A stretch of 64,000 nucleotides of DNA, from contig NZ_JAMLJJ010000005.1 in assembly GCF_023736155.1 (NCBI RefSeq), positions 62,001 through 126,000 of the forward strand, in the 5' to 3' direction. The notes under the pieces are model-generated. The model worked only from the letters and a program-made list of their open reading frames with translations, searched no databases and was not told where the DNA came from. A program made the translations under genes and the position numbers. The stretch's first letter is position 1, and every line of letters starts with the position of its first letter. This document shows positions 7,066 through 19,797 of the stretch, one piece after another. This stretch comes from Larsenimonas salina (GTDB taxonomy: Bacteria; Pseudomonadota; Gammaproteobacteria; Pseudomonadales; Halomonadaceae).

Positions 7066-8343
7066 TCAGCGGGCGCCGGAGCCTGTGAAGACGGTCTTGA
7101 TGGTTCTGATGATGATCAGTACGTCCATCCAGAACGAGAACTTGCGGATGTAGTAGAAATCATACTCGAGCTTTCGCTTCGAGCCCTCGACCTCGGACAC
7201 ATACCCCTGCTCGATCTGGGCCCAGCCGGTGATCCCCGGGCGCACGACGTGACGATAGCGAAAGAAGGGAATGTCCTTTTCATAGGCGGCGGTCAGTGAC
7301 GGCGTTTCCGGGCGCGGGCCGATCAGGCTCATGTCACCTTTCAAGACGTTGAAGATCTGCGGCAGCTCATCGATGCGGTACTTGCGCAACACGCGCCCGA
7401 CGCGGGTGATTCTCGGGTCTTCGACGCCGGCAGTCGGGGTCTGGTTCTCGGGGTTTACGTACATGCTTCGAAGCTTGTAGACGTCGAACTCGATGCCCTG
7501 AAAGCCTGCGCGTTTCTGCTTGAAAAACACCGGGCCCGGATCATCACGCTTGATCATGATGGCAGCGATGGCAATCGGCGGCAGAACCAGCGGCAGCATG
7601 ATGAGCGCCACCACGAAATCCGCTGCGCGCTTGATGAGCTCATAGGTGTTGTTGGTCACCATCAGCCCATAGCGGTTCTGATAGATGTGCTCGAGCCCGA
7701 CCTTGCCGGTCAGTTCCTCGTGAAACCGCTGGGCATCGTGCACCGGAATGCGCTGGATCATGCAGTCAGCCAGAAACCGCTGCCACTCGGGGCTTAATGC
7801 GCTCTTGAGATCGACCACGATGCCATCGATGCGCAGGTCTCTCAGATCCGGCTGCTGAAGCCAGCGCCAGTCGACCACGTTCTGCGTGCAGAAATCCTCC
7901 ACCTGACCGATGGGCACCACGGCGATCTTTCGCACCCGGTAACGGTTACCGATCCAGTAACCGGTGTAGGCCGCCGCCAGTGACAGGGCGTAGGACATCA
8001 GCATCGGTTCGAGCGAGAAGTCGAGCTGGACCGTGGTCAGCAACAGGCCCATCAGAAAGTAGGTGATGGTCATGAACGGCAGGATGTAGATAAGCGCTCT
8101 CGTGCCCGGAAAGCGTGAAATCGAGTGTACTGCGCTGGTCGCGATCAGATAGGCAATGCCGCTTGCCATGATGGTGGTCATCGCGCCCTGGCTGTTCCAC
8201 TGCCAGCCCCAGGTTAGAAGCGCCGGAATGACCGTGGTCAGCACGAACCCCAGGACCAGATTGGTGCGAAAGCTCAGAAGGATCCGTTCGTACCAGCGAG
8301 AGTGGCGAAGTCTGCCGTAGTCGGATTGGTAGGTCATTTGCAT
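7066..8343 (-). CDS. Polyprenyl-phosphate sugar phosphotransferase (WbaP/WcaJ family)
   Basis: Inner membrane priming enzyme that transfers a sugar-1-phosphate to undecaprenyl phosphate to begin an exopolysaccharide or O-unit. The 425 residues have about four N-terminal membrane segments, a soluble middle part, another membrane helix (AADFVVALIMLPLVLPPIAIAA) and the conserved catalytic domain: KRDDPGPVFFKQKRAG, FDVYKLRSM, YRIDELPQIFNVLKGDMSLIGPRPE and VRPGITGWAQI. The start MQMTYQ has GGGAA upstream; the longer in-frame extension looks non-coding. No other polysaccharide genes are adjacent, so it is an orphan. Its sugar cannot be read from sequence. Confidence 0.9.
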   Translation of the reverse strand: MQMTYQSDYGRLRHSRWYERILLSFRTNLVLGFVLTTVIPALLTWGWQWNSQGAMTTIMASGIAYLIATSAVHSISRFPGTRALIYILPFMTITYFLMGLLLTTVQLDFSLEPMLMSYALSLAAAYTGYWIGNRYRVRKIAVVPIGQVEDFCTQNVVDWRWLQQPDLRDLRIDGIVVDLKSALSPEWQRFLADCMIQRIPVHDAQRFHEELTGKVGLEHIYQNRYGLMVTNNTYELIKRAADFVVALIMLPLVLPPIAIAAIMIKRDDPGPVFFKQKRAGFQGIEFDVYKLRSMYVNPENQTPTAGVEDPRITRVGRVLRKYRIDELPQIFNVLKGDMSLIGPRPETPSLTAAYEKDIPFFRYRHVVRPGITGWAQIEQGYVSEVEGSKRKLEYDFYYIRKFSFWMDVLIIIRTIKTVFTGSGAR

Positions 8344-8941
8344 TTTTTTATTCCCACGCGATCCCCTGATCACGTTCCTTGTTGGATATCTGCACGTTAC
8401 GGTCAGAAGCCATTTTCGGTCGGGCCGGGAATCGTGCCTCGATGATATGCCTGAGTCGGTCTCCAACATGCGCTCGATGCACGTAATTACTCGAACACTG
8501 CCGATGTTTTTATAGGGCTTTGAGTCCGCAACAAGACCTGCCTGAAGATAATCTTTATTTAGCGGATGAGAAAGAGAGTGGGCGGGTTAAAAGCACAATT
8601 GGCATATCTTTTAGATAATTTTCAGCGCGGGTCTCAATAAATGGTCAAAGATATTTTTAGATATTTCGTCGACCGTCTGTAGAGAAGTAAAAATAGGTTC
8701 ATTCTCAATGATGACTAACATAAACGCCATTTCTTAGATGCCGTGTAATCCCTTAGGTTTTTTGTGGAGAATATGCGTAAAGCCTTGTGCTACGTGGCCT
8801 GAGCCGAAAAGAGGATTCTGCGCACCGTGCGCGCATCGGCACAGTTCCAGGGCGCTATGATGTTACTTTAAGTTTCAGGTAAAAGTGATTACGGCGACGC
8901 ATAGAGATCCTAAATAATTAAAATAAAGGGAGAATTTCACC

Positions 8942-9076
8942 TTGGTTATTATCGCACTTTATCTAATGTTTATAGTGCCTTTATTGGTCTTCATGGTTGG
9001 GGCGGCAAAAGTGTCGTCAGACAGCGACCGATTTGTAACGCAACGGTTTCCACTGACAGAAGACATAATATTGTAA
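8942..9076 (+). CDS. Possible small single-span membrane protein
   Basis: A 44-codon ORF starting with TTG and preceded by AAAGGGAG about nine bases upstream, a good ribosome binding site. The first 21 residues are almost entirely hydrophobic (VIIALYLMFIVPLLVFMVG), followed by a polar tail (SSDSDRFVTQRFPLTED). This could be a real small membrane protein in the AT-rich gap, but the length is short and TTG is a weak start. No family is recognised. Confidence 0.3.
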   Translation: MVIIALYLMFIVPLLVFMVGAAKVSSDSDRFVTQRFPLTEDIIL

Positions 9077-9259
9077 TGGTTATATTGAACTAAAGTCTAT
9101 TTTAATAGGTGTGTTATTATAAATAGAGATTTTTAAAAAGAGACGATTACTTATTGATAAAAGTCTTGATTAAAAAGGGTAAATTATTGCCTCTGCGGCG
9201 TTTTTCCATGTGTTTTTCCCAAGTATTGATGCGGTGTGACAGGTCATTTTAAGTGTCAT

Positions 9260-9291
9260 CCACAGCGGTGGCGGCTCTGCCATCGCTGTGG
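9260..9291. terminator. Hairpin downstream of the MocR gene
   Basis: CCACAGCGGTGGC pairs with GCCATCGCTGTGG (one G-T wobble) around a 6-base loop. It lies about 75 bases beyond the end of the minus-strand MocR gene. No clear T run follows, so termination is likely but unproven. Confidence 0.45.
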
Positions 9292-9364
9292 ATAACCCGC
9301 GTTATGGATATAACCCGCCTTATGGATAGAAAGCGCCTGGAAGCTCCCGCAGTGCAGGAGCGCG

Positions 9365-10762
9365 CTATACCGTTTCCCAAAGCGTAGGCTCGGGGGCATC
9401 GAGTGCTGCCTTGACGATCTCTAAGGCCTTGGCAAGCTGCGCCCGGTCATGGGCGGCGCTCAGGCACAGCCTGACGGCCTGAGGGGCGGCCGTAGCCCCG
9501 ACGCAAAACGCTTCTCCGGAGGTCAGGCGCACGTTTTGACGTTGAAGCTCATCGATCAGCTGGCTGGCACGAAGCCCTGCCGGCATGTGAATCCATAGAT
9601 AGAACCCCCCTTCGGCGCCCTGTATTCGGTGGCCGTTCAAGGCCTCGATGGCCATGCGGTAGCGGGCCGAGAGCTCGGCGGTCTGCCAGTCGAGTAGGGC
9701 GTCGGCGTCGCCGTGTTCGATCCAGGCGCAGGCAACGCTTGCCATCAACGGCGGCGGCATCCAGCTCTGGGCCCTGAGTGCGGCATTCAATCGACCATGC
9801 AGTACGCTGGGCGCGCGCAACACCCCCGCGCGCAAGCCGCCGCCCAGAAGCTTGGCGACCGAAAACAGATACACAGTGCGCTCCGGCGCAAGCCGGTACA
9901 GCGGCGTACCGCGCCGCTTGTTCGGCGCCATGTAAAGCACCCCATCCTCGATCAGCCACACGTCCTTTTCCCGCGCGAACGCCACCAGCGCTTCTCGCCG
10001 CGGCTGACTCATGGCCACCGTGGTCGGGTTGTGGTGCTCGGGCATCACGTAGATGGCCTTGAACGGCTGCTGCTCAAAGCGCCGCCTCAGCGCCGCGACA
10101 TCGATGCCGTCCTCATCGAGGCCCACCATTGCGGTTTTCAGATGAAGCTGCTGCACGGCGCTGATCAGCCCCGGATAGCTCAGTTCCTCGCACGCAATCC
10201 GCTCCCCCGGCGCCAACAGTGCCAGCAGTGAAATGAAGATGCCGTGCATGCCGCCTTGCGTGATCACCAGTTCCTCGGCCTCGACCGGAAGCTCAAGCGC
10301 CTCGGTCATCCACGTGGCAAAGCGCTGACGACACGCCGCCATGCCGCTTTCCGGCTGATAGCTCAAGAGCTCGGCCAGCGTATCGCCTGCGGCGTTAACG
10401 TGCGCCAGCGCCCGCTGGAAATGACGCACGCGTTCAGGCGTGGGCGGCGGCAGCGACAGACTCAAGTCGATGGTGCCCTGTGACTCGCTCGGCAGCACAT
10501 GCCCGAACGCCGCCGGGCCGCTCGGGCCGTGCACGTAGGTGCCACTGCCGACACGGCCCTCGACCAGGCCGCGCCGTTCGGCGTCGCCGTAGCCCCGGGT
10601 AATGGTGCCGATTGTCACGCCGAGCGCGTCGGCCAGCTGGCGTTGAGGCGGCAGTTTATCGCCGGGCGCCAGCTTGCCTTGATGGATGGCGTGTTCGATG
10701 GCATTCGCCAGCGCCTTGTAGCGCGGGCCGGTCGGTTCAAGATCGGGAGTCCAGATTGTCAT
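9365..10762 (-). CDS. MocR-type regulator (GntR HTH fused to aminotransferase fold)
   Basis: Transcription regulator of 465 residues. Residues 10-75 form a GntR winged helix (LAPGDKLPPQRQLADALGVTIGTITRGY); the rest is a class I aminotransferase fold that normally binds PLP. The PLP lysine lies in SVAKLLGGGLRAG, and the cofactor-pocket region reads HHNPTTVAMSQPRREAL. It is divergent from alaX-lysE, with an inverted repeat in the gap, so it most likely controls that pair in response to an amino acid or amine. The effector is unknown. Confidence 0.88.
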   Translation of the reverse strand: MTIWTPDLEPTGPRYKALANAIEHAIHQGKLAPGDKLPPQRQLADALGVTIGTITRGYGDAERRGLVEGRVGSGTYVHGPSGPAAFGHVLPSESQGTIDLSLSLPPPTPERVRHFQRALAHVNAAGDTLAELLSYQPESGMAACRQRFATWMTEALELPVEAEELVITQGGMHGIFISLLALLAPGERIACEELSYPGLISAVQQLHLKTAMVGLDEDGIDVAALRRRFEQQPFKAIYVMPEHHNPTTVAMSQPRREALVAFAREKDVWLIEDGVLYMAPNKRRGTPLYRLAPERTVYLFSVAKLLGGGLRAGVLRAPSVLHGRLNAALRAQSWMPPPLMASVACAWIEHGDADALLDWQTAELSARYRMAIEALNGHRIQGAEGGFYLWIHMPAGLRASQLIDELQRQNVRLTSGEAFCVGATAAPQAVRLCLSAAHDRAQLAKALEIVKAALDAPEPTLWETV

Positions 10763-13285: not shown

Positions 13286-15118
13286 ATGACCCTGACTCGA
13301 ACCGTGACCAACCCTGAGCGCGAGCGTGGCTACAGCCCGCTTGAAAACTACGCCGCCATCGGCGAGGGCCGCTCGGTGGCGCTGGTGAACATGGATGGCG
13401 CGATCGACTGGTGGTGCGCCCCCACCATGGACCGTTCGCCGCTGTTCGACCGGCTGCTTGATGCAGAGCACGGTGGTCATTTTGTGCTCACGCCCCGTGG
13501 CCCCTACAGGGCCGAGCGCCGCTACCGGCACAACAGCAACGTGCTGGAAACCACCTTCATTACCGAAAACGGCTCGGCCCGCGTGACCGAGTCGATCAAC
13601 AGCAATACCGCCGGCCGCCTGCCCTGGTGTGAGCTGGCGCGCCGGGTCGACGGCGTGGAAGGGGAGGTCGAGTTCGACATTCAGTTCGTGCCGGGCACGC
13701 AGGTTCAAACCGTCAGCCCCTGGCTTCAAACCACCACGCTCGGTGAGGTCTACAACATCGGCCCGCTGATGGTGATGGTGCGCCACAGTGACGATGTGCA
13801 CGTGACCGAGGCCTCCGACCGCGCACTGACGGCGTGCCTGACGGCCCGTGAGGGCGTGCGCTCGATGGTGGCGCTGTTGGCCGCCGAGGGCGAACCGCTG
13901 GCGGTGCCGTCGATTGACAAGATCGACGAGCGCATCGACGTCAGCGATTTCGCCTGGCGCGACTGGGCCGAAAAGCTCGATTACGACGGTGACTACAAGC
14001 AGTGCGTGCTGCGCTCGGCGCTGGCGCTCAAGTTCCTGCTGTACTCCCCGAGTGGCGCCATCGCCGCCGCCGCGACCACCTCGCTCCCCGAGGGCATCGG
14101 CGGCGAGAAAAACTACGACTACCGCTACGCCTGGGTGCGTGATGCCTGTCTTGTCATCAAGGCGTTCGTACACGCAGGCGCTCTGGAGGAGTGCAAGGCC
14201 GCGTTTTCGTGGCTGACCGCCACCATTCATCGCCATGGGCCGAACATGCGCGCCTGCTATACGCTGGAAGGCGCCCTGGTGCCGGCCGAGCGCTACCCCG
14301 AACTCGAAGGCTACATGGGCTCGCGCCCGGTGCGGGTCGGCAACAACGCCAAGGATCAGCTTCAGACCAGCATGTACGGCGACATGTTGGCCACCGCGTC
14401 GCTGTTCATCGAGGCAGGCCATGTGATCGACATCGCCACCGCCAGGCTTCTAGGCGATCTCGCCAATCAATGCGCCGACCGCTGGCAGCAGAAGGACTGC
14501 GGCATCTGGGAGCTGCCGGAAACGCACCACTACACCCATTCCAAGATGGCGTGCTGGCTGGCGCTTGATCACGCCGTGCGTCTGGCGGACGACGGCCACA
14601 TCGAGCCGACCTGGAAAGCGCGCTGGCAGCGTGAGCGTGACCGCATTGCCGAGTGGGTCGAGGCGAACTGCTGGTCACCCGCGCGTCAGGCCTATGTGTT
14701 CTACCCGGGCACCGAAAAGCTCGACGCCGCCATGTGCCTGACCCACCGCTTCGGCACGGGCGTCAACCCTGAGCGGATGGCGCTGACCTACCGCGCGATT
14801 CGAGAGGAGCTGGGTTCAGGCGCGCTGCTGCACCGTTATTCCGGCGCCGAGCAGGAGGAGGGCGCGTTTCTGGCCTGTTCGTTCTGGATGGTTGAGGCGC
14901 TGGGCGCCACTGGCGAATGCGAGGAGGCGCACAAGCTGATGCAGGGGGTCACCGAAGTCAGCAACAACAACCTCGGCTTGATGCATGAAATGATCGACCC
15001 GGGCAGCGGCCGGGCCCTGGGCAACTTCCCCCAGGGCCTCAGTCATCTGGCGTTGATCTGCGCCGCCAACGTGCTTTCCGGCGGCAAGAGCGAATCGACC
15101 GATCAGGACCCGGCGTAG
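13286..15118 (+). CDS. GH15-family glycosidase (glucoamylase/trehalase type)
   Basis: A 610-residue protein with an N-terminal beta domain (YAAIGEGRSVALVNMDGAIDWWCAPTMDRSPLFDRLLD) and a C-terminal (alpha/alpha)6 barrel of glycoside hydrolase family 15 (LPEGIGGEKNYDYRYAWVRDACLVIKAF; later LGLMHEMIDPGSGRALGNFPQGLSHLALI). No signal peptide is seen, so it is probably cytoplasmic and acts on trehalose or an alpha-glucan. The start MTLTRTVTN is preferred; a longer form of 635 residues is possible, and neither start has a strong ribosome site. Its end overlaps chaC by 16 bases. Confidence 0.9.
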   Translation: MTLTRTVTNPERERGYSPLENYAAIGEGRSVALVNMDGAIDWWCAPTMDRSPLFDRLLDAEHGGHFVLTPRGPYRAERRYRHNSNVLETTFITENGSARVTESINSNTAGRLPWCELARRVDGVEGEVEFDIQFVPGTQVQTVSPWLQTTTLGEVYNIGPLMVMVRHSDDVHVTEASDRALTACLTAREGVRSMVALLAAEGEPLAVPSIDKIDERIDVSDFAWRDWAEKLDYDGDYKQCVLRSALALKFLLYSPSGAIAAAATTSLPEGIGGEKNYDYRYAWVRDACLVIKAFVHAGALEECKAAFSWLTATIHRHGPNMRACYTLEGALVPAERYPELEGYMGSRPVRVGNNAKDQLQTSMYGDMLATASLFIEAGHVIDIATARLLGDLANQCADRWQQKDCGIWELPETHHYTHSKMACWLALDHAVRLADDGHIEPTWKARWQRERDRIAEWVEANCWSPARQAYVFYPGTEKLDAAMCLTHRFGTGVNPERMALTYRAIREELGSGALLHRYSGAEQEEGAFLACSFWMVEALGATGECEEAHKLMQGVTEVSNNNLGLMHEMIDPGSGRALGNFPQGLSHLALICAANVLSGGKSESTDQDPA

Positions 15119-15690
15119 GCGCTCTCGCCGATAAGTTCGCGCAGGTGGCGCTCGATTTCGAACACGTGCGGGTCCTCGTCGTTCAGATCGCGCAGGGAAT
15201 CGGCGAGCTTCAACAGATACTCGCGGTTGGGGCCGCTCGGCCCCTCGGACACCGCGATGTGCGCGGCAATTTCCGCCTCGCTCGCCTCGCCGAGCCAGGC
15301 GGCGTTGTCGGGCCCGGCCCAGTAGACAATGCTGTCGGTCATCTCGTTGGTGTCGAACGTCATTGAGATGGTGCGCCGCAGATAGCCGTTCTTCTCGCGC
15401 ACATCGAGGCTATCGAACACTTCCGGTGTGACCAGATACCCCATGCCCCAGCAGATGGCCTCGGACGATTCGATCAGCGTCGCCACGCGCCCCGGCGCTT
15501 CCGGCGTGCCGCGGTGGTCGTGAGAGCCTTGCCAGAACCGGCGCTCATAGCCGCTGATCCACGCCGGGCGGCGCTTTATGTACTCGAAGCCCGCCTTGAA
15601 GATCAGCGAGCCGTAACCGAACAGCCAGACGGGTTTATCGCCTTCGAAAGCGCTGTTCTGACGATTTATCTCGGTGGTGTCGTGTGCCAT
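15103..15690 (-). CDS. chaC: ChaC-like gamma-glutamylcyclotransferase
   Basis: A 195-residue cytoplasmic enzyme that degrades glutathione to 5-oxoproline and Cys-Gly in characterised ChaC proteins. The substrate loop FGYGSLIF lies near residue 24, and the region around SLDVREKNGYLRR carries the family Glu expected as the catalytic acid/base. The start MAHDTTEINRQ was chosen over a 14-codon extension. Its 3' end overlaps the convergent GH15 gene. Confidence 0.93.
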   Translation of the reverse strand: MAHDTTEINRQNSAFEGDKPVWLFGYGSLIFKAGFEYIKRRPAWISGYERRFWQGSHDHRGTPEAPGRVATLIESSEAICWGMGYLVTPEVFDSLDVREKNGYLRRTISMTFDTNEMTDSIVYWAGPDNAAWLGEASEAEIAAHIAVSEGPSGPNREYLLKLADSLRDLNDEDPHVFEIERHLRELIGESAYAGS

Positions 15691-15730
15691 GAGGTCTCTA
15701 ATCGTTGAGCGAAGGGGTATGCACCCTATC

Positions 15731-15754
15731 AAAAAAAGCGCCCGTCTGAGCGCT
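15731..15754 (-). terminator. Terminator of the cytochrome c5 gene
   Basis: Read on the minus strand: AGCGC, an 8-base loop, GCGCT and then a run of seven T residues. It lies about 25 bases beyond the cytochrome stop and just upstream of chaC. Confidence 0.65.
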
Positions 15755-15778
15755 GTATTTAGGCAGTGCTAATAAAAG

Positions 15779-16102
15779 TTACTGGCTCGGAAGCTCGACT
15801 CCGCTCTGGCCGACCATATACTCCACCGCCGCCTTCACCTGTGCTTCACTCAAGCTTGAATTGCCGCCTTTCGCCGGCATGCCGCCCACGCCCTTGATGG
15901 CGTTGTCATAAAGCGTATCCATGCCGTGGCTCTCGACCAGATGCTGCCAGGTTTTGGTATCACCGACGGTTGGCGCACCGCCGCCCCCACTGTGGCACAT
16001 CGCGCAGTTATCCTGATACACCGATTCGCCCTCGGGCGCGGCCAGGGCCAGTGGTGCCAGCAGCAGCGCACCCAGCGCCAGCGATACAGTCTTTATTCGC
16101 AT
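15779..16102 (-). CDS. Cytochrome c5-type periplasmic cytochrome
   Basis: A small monohaem cytochrome c of 107 residues. A signal peptide ends at ALA-AP (residue 21/22). The haem site is CAMCH at residues 33-37, and the probable axial Met lies in GGMPAKGG near residue 75. The pattern SVYQDNCAMCH...LSEAQVKAAVEYMV is typical of class I cytochrome c5. It should carry electrons in the periplasm; its partner is not evident nearby. Confidence 0.93.
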   Translation of the reverse strand: MRIKTVSLALGALLLAPLALAAPEGESVYQDNCAMCHSGGGGAPTVGDTKTWQHLVESHGMDTLYDNAIKGVGGMPAKGGNSSLSEAQVKAAVEYMVGQSGVELPSQ

Positions 16103-16202
16103 CCTCGATTCTCCGTGTCGCGGTCATGAAACGGGCCACTCAAGCGGCCTCTTGGTACTGTTACTATAGAGCACGCGCCGAGGCCCCGCGTGGTTCGTGA
16201 CA

Positions 16203-16231
16203 TGGACAACGCCTGGGGATATCCGTACAAT
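16203..16231 (+). promoter_or_regulatory. Sigma-70 promoter of tRNA-Arg
   Basis: TGGACA and TACAAT are separated by 17 bases, each differing from consensus by one base, 30 bases before the tRNA. The segment after the -10 box is GC-rich (GCCACGCG), as in stringently controlled stable RNA promoters. Confidence 0.7.
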
Positions 16232-16260
16232 GCCACGCGTCGCTGCAACGGCGACCTCGC

Positions 16261-16337
16261 GCGCCCATAGCTCAGCTGGATAGAGTACTGCCCTCCGAAG
16301 GCAGGGGTCGAAGGTTCGAATCCTTCTGGGCGCGCCA
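16261..16337 (+). tRNA. tRNA-Arg (anticodon CCG)
   Basis: A complete 77-nucleotide cloverleaf. The acceptor stem is GCGCCCA with TGGGCGC and an encoded CCA end. The D stem is GCTC/GAGT. The anticodon stem CTGCC/GGCAG holds the loop CTCCGAA, giving anticodon CCG, which reads the arginine codon CGG. The T arm is GAAGG-TTCGAAT-CCTTC. An AT-rich reverse transcriptase gene on the opposite strand ends two bases beyond the CCA. Confidence 0.97.
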
Positions 16338-16339
16338 TC

Positions 16340-17965
16340 TTACTCTTTTTGCTCAGAAAGCCAGTTTTTAAAGCTTAGTGTTTCTTCCCTGCTGTCAAAT
16401 ACGTATCCAAACTTTAGATACTCGCAATAGCTTTCTGCCAAAGTTATTCCGTTATCCCAAGTTATAAAATTAACCTTGTAATCTTTTAGGATTCTGAAAG
16501 TTTCATCATCTTCATAAGGCTTTTTTATCAGATCTTTTGAGTATAGCTGGTAGAGAAATATCCAGTTTTGATCTTTTTCAAAATCTGTTTTTTTAATTAA
16601 AGAGCATGCATAGTCTAATATCGCTGCCTCAGCAGGTTTGTAATCTGACAATATTGCTAGACTAACTGGGTCTTTTAACTTTAATACTTCATAAATGCTG
16701 TCTTTATATATTCTAAGGTTGTTTTTTATAAGTATGTATAGAGCCCACGCAACGCCATCCGATCTTCCGTCTTTTGAGTGTTCTTGTAGAATTGAGTTGA
16801 TTTTTTCCTCTAACGGGCTGATTAAATAAAAAGAGCCACCTTCGGGTGCTTCGATTTTATCTAAAAATGGCAAAAGTACGGGGTAGTGCCAGCTTAAGTT
16901 AATTATATATTTGGCAATTGATTCACTGTGCTCTGACGGTATGTAATTTATTATTGAGCTAAAGGCGAATTTTAAAACGCTTCCGTCAGGAGTTTTTTGA
17001 TTGATCCTTATAGCGTAATCAACGAAGTTTATTACTTCAGAAATAGAGAATTCAGTATTTCTTTTGTTTGGTCCAAGGCTAAATGGTTTAGCTCTATTAA
17101 GCTCTATAACCCAGTCGGGGCAAAGGGGCTCAGGTTGTTCAATAATTGAGGTCTTTGTTAAATTCAATGTAAGTTTGAATTTAGATAGCTCATTTCCTAA
17201 CGTACGTATAAAGCTTTGTGCTTCTTCATGCGTTTTACATAAGCACGTGTAGTCATCTATATATCTGACGAATTCGAACCCTTGGATGCCAAGTTTTTCA
17301 TCGATTTTGCTTAATATTATCTCTGCACATAGGCTTGATGTAGCGGGACCTATAGGGATACCTAGAGTTTCTTTTCTCTTAGACATTCTAACTGTAGTGT
17401 CTAAATCTTCAGACCAGTGCTTTTCTCGTAATGGTCGTTTTTTAGAGAGGTTGTCTTTCGTGTTCTTGAATCCTCTTAAAGCCCATTCGAAAGAGTGAGA
17501 GTAAACTGATCCAAAGAAATTGGATATATCTGTATGGACTCTAAATTTTTTGGCAAAAGATAAATCGAGAAGATTTGTGACTTTATCATCATATTTTTCA
17601 TAGTTCATGATGAAAGCTCGGCCATCGTTATGCTGGTTTGGTCTTATGATGCTAAATTCATTAGTGTATAGACTTTCTAAGTGCTCCCAGTTTTCTATGA
17701 AACATTTGACAACGTCAGAGTGAGCTTTAGGATGAACAAGGCTTAAAATGCGTGGAACGTTATTGTATCTGGTAGCTCGGTATTCTACTAAATCATATCC
17801 TTCCGATCTTTTTCTGCATTCGGCTAACATTTCAGATATTTCAGGTGTAAAACTTTTACTAGAGACACATGGTGGTAGCTCCCAAGTACCTTCCTTTTGA
17901 TTTGGGAAATAGTTCCATCGTGTTAATGCCTCGTGTAAATGCCTTTTATCGCTATTGAAAATCAT
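16340..17965 (-). CDS. Reverse transcriptase of probable antiviral (UG/Abi-like) type
   Basis: A 541-residue protein. The polymerase part holds motif A (VHTDISNFFGSVYSHS, catalytic D146), motif B (GIPIGPATSSLCAEIIL, residues 202-218), motif C (RYIDDYTCLC, D237 and D238) and motif D (KLTLNLTKTSII, residues 264-275). All three catalytic aspartates are present. An upstream block (VEYRATRYNNVPRIL, IIRPNQHNDGRAFIM) and a long helical C-terminal half (about 300-541) do not fit group II intron, retron or DGR enzymes; they resemble the UG/Abi defence reverse transcriptases. No maturase or endonuclease domain is seen. AAGGA precedes the ATG. The gene is markedly AT-rich and abuts tRNA-Arg, which suggests acquisition by transfer. 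The exact class is not assigned. Confidence 0.88.
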   Translation of the reverse strand: MIFNSDKRHLHEALTRWNYFPNQKEGTWELPPCVSSKSFTPEISEMLAECRKRSEGYDLVEYRATRYNNVPRILSLVHPKAHSDVVKCFIENWEHLESLYTNEFSIIRPNQHNDGRAFIMNYEKYDDKVTNLLDLSFAKKFRVHTDISNFFGSVYSHSFEWALRGFKNTKDNLSKKRPLREKHWSEDLDTTVRMSKRKETLGIPIGPATSSLCAEIILSKIDEKLGIQGFEFVRYIDDYTCLCKTHEEAQSFIRTLGNELSKFKLTLNLTKTSIIEQPEPLCPDWVIELNRAKPFSLGPNKRNTEFSISEVINFVDYAIRINQKTPDGSVLKFAFSSIINYIPSEHSESIAKYIINLSWHYPVLLPFLDKIEAPEGGSFYLISPLEEKINSILQEHSKDGRSDGVAWALYILIKNNLRIYKDSIYEVLKLKDPVSLAILSDYKPAEAAILDYACSLIKKTDFEKDQNWIFLYQLYSKDLIKKPYEDDETFRILKDYKVNFITWDNGITLAESYCEYLKFGYVFDSREETLSFKNWLSEQKE

Positions 17966-18049
17966 CCTGTATCCTTTTGTTTGTTTATAATTATTTTGTC
18001 TTTTGAATTTTGATAGCGCTTGTAAGTGGTAGCTATAATTTTTTATTAC

Positions 18050-18679
18050 TCACCGATGCGACACCGCCAACGCCCCGCCGGCGGCGATGAACAGCCCGCC
18101 GGTGGTGCGGTTAAATAGCCGCACGCGGCGGGGGCTCTTGAACCAGCGGCCGATGGCGCCGCCGAGCGCGGCGTAGGTGGTCATGGCGGTGAAGTCGACC
18201 GCGAGCCACGTCAGCGCAAGCAGGGTGAGCTGGGGCATAAGCGGCAGGCTCATATCCAGGAAGTTTGGGAACAGCGCGCCGAAGAACAGCAGATCCTTGG
18301 GGTTGCTGAGGCCGATGCCGAGCCCCTTGCGAAAGCGCCTGCCCGCCGATGCCGCCGGTAGGGGCGCGTCCTCCGCCGTCGTGTCCACCGGTGCGGCCGG
18401 GCTCCGCCAGGCCTGCACCCCCAGATAGATCAGATACCCCGCCCCGATGATCTTGAGTGCGAGAAAGGCAAGCTCCGAGGTCGCAAGAATCGCCCCGAGC
18501 CCGAGGGCAGATAACCCCATCAGCATCAGTGAGGCGGTGACGTCGCCGGTCACCGAGGCCAGCGCCCGGCGCCGGCCGACCCGCACGCCCTGATGCATGC
18601 ACAAAAGTGCGACAGGGCCTGGAAACGCGATCAACGCGGTAATCACGCTTAGGTAGGTCAACCAGATCGCCAGATCCAT
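18050..18679 (-). CDS. LysE/RhtB-family exporter
   Basis: A 209-residue inner membrane protein with six hydrophobic segments. Family marks are ITALIAFPGPVALLCMHQGVRVGRRRAL near the N-terminus and GIGLSNPKDLLFFGALFPNF in the middle. The ATG at 18679 is preferred because AGGAG lies five bases upstream; an in-frame GTG two codons earlier overlaps that site. The substrate is unknown. Codon and base use return to the GC-rich norm here, marking the far edge of the reverse transcriptase segment. Confidence 0.9.
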   Translation of the reverse strand: MDLAIWLTYLSVITALIAFPGPVALLCMHQGVRVGRRRALASVTGDVTASLMLMGLSALGLGAILATSELAFLALKIIGAGYLIYLGVQAWRSPAAPVDTTAEDAPLPAASAGRRFRKGLGIGLSNPKDLLFFGALFPNFLDMSLPLMPQLTLLALTWLAVDFTAMTTYAALGGAIGRWFKSPRRVRLFNRTTGGLFIAAGGALAVSHR

Positions 18680-18966
18680 GGGCACTCCTGCGGATGAGGG
18701 GCGACGGGGCGAGCGCGTCGCGCGGTTCTATAAGAAGGCCCTGATTCTGTCTCAAACCCGCGGACTGGACAATCCGTGGTAGTGCTGCAATTACTTCAAT
18801 AGAGCGCGCGGTGGCCCGAGAGCGTTAAGGAAACCCTCATGCAACGTTAATAAAACGATAAGTTTTCGTTGCTATTACTTGCACGCTCACGGCGCAGCGG
18901 GCAAGGCGAGCCCCGCGCGCGTTACTGAATAGCATTGATCGTCCACCCCACTAAAAGGCCTGCCCG

Positions 18967-19797
18967 ATGTCTTCTCCCCTGCTTTCGGTGTTGATTCCCG
19001 CCAAGGATGAAGCCGGCAATCTGCCCGGCCTGCTCGATGAAATCGCCGCGGCGCTCGGGGAGGTTCCGCATGAAGTCATCGTGGTCGATGACGCCTCAAG
19101 CGATGAGACCTGGACACTTCTGACCCGCCGCGCCGAGCGTGATGCGCGCCTGCGCCCGCTTCGTCACGCGAAAAGCGCGGGGCAGAGCACCTCGGTGTGG
19201 CAGGCCGCCTGGGCGGCGCGTGGGGAGTGGCTGGCAACGCTTGACGGCGATGGCCAGAACGACCCGGCGGATCTTCCGGCGGCGCTTGCCAAGGCCCGCG
19301 AGACCGGCGTAACGCTGGTGGCGGGGCACCGCACCAACCGGCGCGATGACTGGCTCAAGCGGGTGTCCTCGAAAATCGCCAACCGGGTGCGCGGTGCGCT
19401 GCTCGATGACGCCACGCCAGACACCGGCTGCGGGCTGAAGGTCATTCGGCGCTCGGCGTTTCTGGCGCTTCCCTATTTCGATCACATGCACCGCTTTTTG
19501 CCGGCGCTGGTGCGGGCCCAGGGCGGCTCCTGCGTGTCGGTGCCGGTCAATCACCGCCCGCGCGGGGCCGGGCGCTCGCACTACGGCCTCAACAACCGGC
19601 TGTGGGTGGGACTTGTCGATATGGTCGGGGTGATGTGGCTGCGTCGGCGCAGCAGGCTGCCGGCGACGTTCATCTTCGAATCCGGGCGCGAGTCCGAATC
19701 CGAGCCCCGGCCCGAGACCGCCTCCGAGGCCGAATCCAACAAAAGAAACGCGCCGGAGCTCGAGCGGCCGGCCGCCTCCGGGCAGGTGACGCCGTGA
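18967..19797 (+). CDS. GT2 glycosyltransferase, polyprenyl-phosphate sugar synthase type
   Basis: A 276-residue GT-A fold enzyme related to dolichol-phosphate mannose synthase and ArnC. Visible are LSVLIPAKDEAGNLPGLL, EVIVVDDASSDETW, the DxD-type LDGDGQNDP and the acceptor region TPDTGCGLKVIRRSAF. Unlike ArnC it lacks a pair of C-terminal membrane helices and ends in a Glu- and Pro-rich tail. It probably charges undecaprenyl phosphate with a sugar for the two GT39 enzymes downstream. The next gene overlaps its stop in TGATG. Confidence 0.88.
   Translation: MSSPLLSVLIPAKDEAGNLPGLLDEIAAALGEVPHEVIVVDDASSDETWTLLTRRAERDARLRPLRHAKSAGQSTSVWQAAWAARGEWLATLDGDGQNDPADLPAALAKARETGVTLVAGHRTNRRDDWLKRVSSKIANRVRGALLDDATPDTGCGLKVIRRSAFLALPYFDHMHRFLPALVRAQGGSCVSVPVNHRPRGAGRSHYGLNNRLWVGLVDMVGVMWLRRRSRLPATFIFESGRESESEPRPETASEAESNKRNAPELERPAASGQVTP

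Follow-up and report, generated by a model that had tools for sequence, protein, structure and literature searches.

An AT-rich reverse transcriptase gene lodged against a tRNA-Arg(CCG) gene of Larsenimonas salina encodes, almost certainly, a full-length member of the DRT4 (UG15) family, and by analogy with studied DRT4 proteins it is expected to act as a one-gene anti-phage defence system. The likeliest account of its position is that a satellite of P4-like make-up left it there. We consider highly probable the account as a whole, in which drt4 is a defence gene that would work by the DRT4 mechanism and would have come in as satellite cargo, the remainder of the satellite being lost later; that the window copy is a satellite remnant is, taken by itself, the reading that we favour on balance.

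A single reverse transcriptase gene adjoins tRNA-Arg(CCG)

The gene lies within the 64,000-nucleotide stretch of DNA analysed here (the window), where the following features were located:

16261-16337, plus strand: tRNA-Arg(CCG), intact (ARAGORN; Rfam RF00005, 67.5 bits)
16338-18049, no strand given: AT-rich segment without counterpart in the sister genome, running from the end of the tRNA up to the LysE-like stop codon (blastn against L039)
16340-17965, minus strand: drt4, UG15, a class 1 UG/Abi antiviral reverse transcriptase of 541 aa (NF041749.1, PADLOC, PDB sequences, fold)
17966-18049, no strand given: drt4 leader, 84 bases, AT-rich, holding an outward sigma-70-like site
18050-18685, minus strand: LysE-like gene (labelled so in the initial annotation), next after drt4

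The drt4 frame starts with ATG and runs uninterrupted for 541 codons, and no other gene separates the tRNA from the LysE-like gene. The initial annotation had described an AT-rich gene whose stop codon lies two bases from the CCA end of the tRNA, and both points were borne out: the gap comprises positions 16338-16339, and GC content is 35.7% in the drt4 ORF and 35.2% in the insert (16338-18049) vs 61.5% in the window. The lowest-GC segment of 1626 bases (35.4%, step of 50 bases) starts at 16401, within the drt4 insert. A second GC dip (45-48%) was seen at 8001-9500, around the gap between two minus-strand genes; positions 8470-9364 within it hold no ORF of at least 60 aa. The sigma-70-like site of the leader (18010-18039, TTGATA-18-TATAAT, 11 of 12 consensus bases) lies on the plus strand and points outward, and at least one equally good site occurred in 5 of 100 simulated sequences. 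Ahead of drt4, whose expression we presume, the minus strand gave no sigma-70-like promoter.

The protein belongs to the DRT4 (UG15) family

Sequence models and a predicted fold point to a UG/Abi-type antiviral reverse transcriptase encoded by a single gene, as had been proposed. The class, which the initial annotation had thought could not be fixed, leaving room for a lineage not yet tested, is DRT4/UG15. In the profile search that it had called for, the NCBIfam equivalog model Drt4 (NF041749.1) was matched at 654.1 bits against a cut-off of 450, over model positions 1-489 of 489, and Drt4 models took five of the top six PADLOC rows (best 1.5e-204), with Drt6 fourth (6.1e-91). The solved UG15/DRT4 chains (PDB sequences) match the drt4 product at ~3e-139 over residues 2-537 of 541. 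RVT_1 alone was found by Pfam at E <= 1, and the product therefore has no maturase or endonuclease domain, as read at the outset.

We modelled the protein with AlphaFold2 from an 11-row alignment (mean pLDDT 81, pTM 0.83). When the predicted model was compared with the PDB using Foldseek, UG15 9l9s (9l9s_B) aligned at a TM of 0.89 over 543 columns and DRT4 9vdo at 0.84 by query and 0.91 by target length, followed by DRT6 (0.72), AbiK (~0.64) and Abi-P2 (0.44-0.51). The helical tail noticed earlier is also present in the model, which is nearly all helix from residue 284 onward and has a C-terminal helical domain as in the solved UG15/DRT4 structures.

The tree that had likewise been called for was built from 20 hand-chosen rows with long outgroup branches. 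It places the ten DRT4 rows in one group, with support of 88/88 that is below the starred level; a single branch separates them from the remaining rows in 94% of 200 bootstrap trees. The window and Salinicola halophilus proteins are sisters (100/100). One further protein (L028) was excluded from the alignment, the tree and the identity counts because its frame ends after 266 codons. Identity between the window protein and the nine other DRT4 proteins ranges from 41 to 60%, so that, judged by its sequence, it is a divergent new DRT4 within a family that is already known, with structures solved and a mechanism reported.

Active site and expected mechanism

All three catalytic aspartates are kept at the positions that the initial annotation had named (D146, D237 and D238, the last two in a YIDDY motif) and are invariant in the 11-row alignment. 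The tyrosines Y19, Y62, Y122, Y155, Y235 and Y472 are invariant in ten DRT4 proteins. DRT4 is reported to prime on a conserved tyrosine (PMC13314766), and the priming residue of AbiK, Y44, is described as sitting in a long loop (PMC9508834). In our predicted model, the first two helices are joined by the loop that holds Y19, and Y62 is part of a strand. Both are possible candidates for the priming tyrosine, and our guess is Y19.

According to a review, DRT4 synthesizes single-stranded DNA of random sequence with no need of a template, and this DNA is toxic to infected cells (PMC13213688); a preprint lists DRT4 among hexameric assemblies (PMC13174585). By analogy with the solved and assayed DRT4 proteins, the window protein would be expected to assemble as a hexamer, to start synthesis on a tyrosine of its own and to add nucleotides template-free, yielding random single-stranded DNA. 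While a phage infects the cell, the 3' end of this DNA would be shielded from nucleases by a DNA-binding protein of the phage (ORF55 in the studied case), and the shielded DNA would build up until the infected cell is stopped. Given the homology, it is very probable that the window protein shares the mechanism of the studied DRT4.

The window protein resembles the known DRT4 (UG15) proteins in its full-length homology (~2-537 of 541), its catalytic triad, and its combination of a reverse transcriptase with a helical C-terminal domain. Like them, it is encoded by a single gene. No known ncRNA family was found beside it: within 15700-19000, a search of Rfam, which covers described RNA families, gave the tRNA alone at gathering score and three other matches below theirs. 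It differs from them in that the window copy stands alone against a tRNA in a genome of the Halomonadaceae, to which S. halophilus also belongs. DRT6 comes next both in fold and in the PADLOC models, but has 21% identity in the structural alignment and scores far under Drt4. AbiK and Abi-P2, described as protein-primed, template-independent polymerases (PMC9508834), share the fold at the lower TM values given above but only 14-17% identity, and their proven priming residues, Y44 and Y61, lie in loops of their own.

The same tRNA carries different inserts in related genomes

An identical copy of the window tRNA-Arg(CCG) is found in both congeners and in S. halophilus. The initial annotation had singled out the interval from this tRNA to the LysE-like gene for comparison; drt4 is absent from both congener genomes. 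In a blastn comparison with the sister genome G002 (locus L039), window positions 14001-16354 align at 96.2%, and homology comes back at 18050 (95.4%). The left end of the drt4 insert coincides with the end of the tRNA, which we regard as telling. We considered position 18050 as a border common to the window and sister inserts and dropped it, because any pairwise alignment shows a single restart point; it is where the two sequences become alike again and not necessarily the end of both inserts. The interval in the sister genome, ~3.7 kb, holds a tyrosine integrase (394 aa), a DUF6392 protein (155 aa) and an S-type pyocin (516 aa), the pyocin and its DUF6392 neighbour lying behind the integrase (L039:4082-6102). 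The other congener, G001, has a lone 567-aa methyltransferase/HNH gene immediately following the same tRNA. Within this genus, one tRNA is followed by a different insert in each of three genomes.

The distribution of drt4 is patchy. Only 2 of 275 family genomes carry it (E <= 1e-60), namely the window genome and that of S. halophilus (G194, locus L020), and both copies adjoin tRNA-Arg(CCG). A class-level sample of 369 genomes gave two above the curated Drt4 cut-off, the window genome included. Among plasmids one match only was found (42%, Pseudoalteromonas piscicida; E <= 1e-60), and among phages six records matched (E <= 1e-10), each covering 31-37% of the query. This patchiness, the differing inserts after the same tRNA, and the occurrence of a related integrase lineage at tRNAs described below uphold the earlier proposal of an acquired gene at a tRNA integration hotspot; the contrary pattern that it had named, the same neighbours in all related strains, was not encountered, since 2 of 2 congeners are without drt4. 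An empty site, in which the LysE-like gene follows directly on the tRNA, was looked for at 32 loci (from 31 of 32 family genomes matching the tRNA in a sample of 101, and L020) and not found among the first seven ORFs downstream. Within that range the LysE-like gene occurs in L039 only, behind its insert.

A satellite of S. halophilus carries drt4 at the same tRNA

The order of genes in S. halophilus is tRNA-Arg(CCG), integrase, drt4, and then genes for Toprim and DUF927 proteins, with drt4 tail-to-tail with the integrase and one base between their stop codons. Its DRT4 is 60% identical to that of the window, and its integrase is 86% identical to the one in sister genome G002. Upstream of the tRNA, the window and S. 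halophilus have a cytochrome-like gene (assigned by eye) in common, 75% identical over 123 bases, and they therefore appear to represent the same chromosomal site. Judged by gene content, the S. halophilus drt4 lies inside a satellite of P4-like make-up, and this related genus likely shows the source element of drt4.

Among the 275 family genomes, 29 carry the integrase lineage, at 32 places in all (E <= 1e-130), and the window's own genome gave no match at this threshold. The integrase adjoins a tRNA, located just upstream, in 30 of 30 loci read with ARAGORN (10 Arg-CCG, 17 Arg-CCT, 2 Arg-TCG and 1 Asn-GTT), and a second pass found a tRNA beside it in all 32 places. The window tRNA-Arg(CCG) is thus a site type used by related integrases. 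One locus at tRNA-Arg(CCG), L086 (L086:1578-15577), which has its genus label in common with S. halophilus, looks like a complete satellite of P4-like make-up, with an integrase, a transcription regulator, a primase, a helicase and a Psu-like protein; a 79-aa gene in S. halophilus resembles, by eye, the regulator matched there. The L086 element ends near an imperfect copy of the tRNA end at +13.9 kb, and it also holds the Hachiman genes HamC/HamA/HamB, which are situated at the far end of the element, before the tentative attR, and not beside the integrase. Ogr/Delta and AlpA were found in L170, and no match to sid or epsilon was found among the satellite proteins scanned (selected ORFs). The Ogr/Delta zinc finger of L170 is fused to an isochorismatase domain (268 aa, L170:1743-2549, next to the integrase), and ORFs similar to this fusion in size and start are present in L174, L175 and L176.

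Repeats of the tRNA end were sought at these loci. Neither the surroundings of the window insert, nor the sister, nor 10.6 kb of S. halophilus gave a copy of the tRNA 3' end (attR), and none with <=3 mismatches was found elsewhere in the window. With the last 22 tRNA bases, the best downstream match at the 32 integrase loci was never above the best of 20 shuffles. The first 16 of these 22 bases have imperfect copies in L086, L087, L088 and L090 (0 of 30 shuffles as good), and no copy was found by the 16-base search in L085, L089, L020, L039 or the window. We call att repeats in the former four tentatively; L087 and L090 have no integrase among the first seven downstream ORFs.

We also scanned chosen proteins for defence cargo. 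A first set of ten proteins comprised one from L040 and nine, selected for their size or AT-richness, from 9 of the 32 integrase loci; four proteins from L086 and one from L039 were added, and the total does not represent a rate. Strong model matches were obtained for RmrA (L165), SoFic (L179), PDC-S49 (L184) and HamC/HamA/HamB (L086). Partial matches were to PDC-M68A (L186, N-terminal part) and AbiJ (L178; PADLOC 3.9e-12, Pfam AbiJ_NTD3 7.4e-49), and those of L180 and L040 were weak. Both L039 genes, L088, L166 and the 136-aa gene of L086 had no PADLOC match. The genes matching RmrA, SoFic, AbiJ, PDC-S49 and PDC-M68A, chosen as described, lie <=2.2 kb from integrases. P4-like satellites of E. 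coli are reported to have a psu-int hotspot with many kinds of defence genes beside the integrase (Rousset et al. 2022, PMC9122126). The S. halophilus drt4 similarly fills the slot directly beside a satellite integrase; the satellites of the window's family differ in adjoining tRNA-Arg genes, and the window keeps no satellite part. A limited search of the literature at the level of titles found none plainly about a tRNA-Arg satellite or defence site in Halomonas.

It should be noted that an integrase of this lineage was seen at just one of the nine DRT4 loci examined, that of S. halophilus; its absence from the other eight counts against a general link between DRT4 and this integrase. At one DRT4 locus, in Thiohalophilus thiocyanatoxydans (L027:4675-13809), drt4 shares four bases with the gene before it and is flanked by genes resembling, by eye, type I restriction-modification subunits. 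The window's genome also has a DRT3 pair (L041:5719-9116; G000:C12:255718-259115), consisting of Drt3a (447 aa, 1.1e-109) and Drt3b (687 aa, 1.2e-186); a tRNA-Arg(TCG) lies ~1.8 kb away, and this tRNA was the one Rfam match to reach a gathering score in L041.

How drt4 came to lie against the tRNA

We suggest that a satellite of P4-like make-up, with a tyrosine integrase specific for tRNA-Arg, would have brought in drt4 as cargo, and that integrase and backbone would have been lost afterwards, so that the defence gene alone now abuts the tRNA. Because the window holds neither an integrase nor an att copy, the satellite origin draws on the comparison with S. halophilus (60% identity) and not on relics, and for the same reason we rejected a full satellite at the window locus, where drt4 stands alone. 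The gene might instead have reached the tRNA as a single-gene unit, through homologous recombination or a satellite integrase acting in trans, and never, in this lineage, have belonged to a full satellite. We consider this unlikely, although it would fit both the window insert, which is drt4 without an integrase, and the lone methyltransferase/HNH gene of G001 after the same tRNA. In S. halophilus, however, drt4 has the same orientation and sits beside the integrase within a satellite, the interval of sister G002 still has an integrase, and the window shows no att repeat of the kind that would delimit a mobile single-gene unit.

Other explanations concern the protein itself. It could be a decayed or repurposed reverse transcriptase with no function in defence, as the missing satellite parts and the lack of a sigma-70-like promoter on the drt4 strand might suggest, but a frame that is full-length and uninterrupted, retains the catalytic triad and C-terminal domain, and scores 654 bits to an equivalog model makes this improbable. 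A group II intron, retron or diversity-generating reverse transcriptase would have the RVT_1 domain in common with it, and group_II_RT_mat and the retron St85 RT model do register, at 53.3 and 35.9 bits. These scores, however, are far under the model cut-offs (300 and 235) and under the 654 bits of Drt4, there is no maturase domain, only the tRNA reaches a gathering score in Rfam (15700-19000), and group II, retron and DGR structures among the best 50 matches listed have a TM by query of 0.26-0.34. The initial annotation had found no retron features and would have given way to a best match of this kind; none was obtained, the probability of such an identity is negligible, and a group II intron or retron origin was rejected on scores and fold. 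Satellite cargo with later loss is the likeliest history. The observation that started this analysis was correct and its readings as defence and as a hotspot hold, while the hope of an untested lineage fails.

Implications

We tentatively propose that satellites of P4-like make-up with tRNA-Arg-specific integrases may all dock at the tRNA-Arg genes of this family, where single defence genes such as drt4 stay behind after satellite loss or move in as bare cassettes; we put this forward as a conjecture that may well prove wrong. The divergence of this DRT4 (41-60% identity) makes it a useful test of how far individual residues and the phage trigger are conserved. With three inserts after one tRNA in one genus and a likely source in a related genus, the locus is a clear case for tracing how satellite cargo becomes resident immunity. 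If the proposal is true, it would describe one way in which hosts come to keep a resident one-gene immunity from their satellites.
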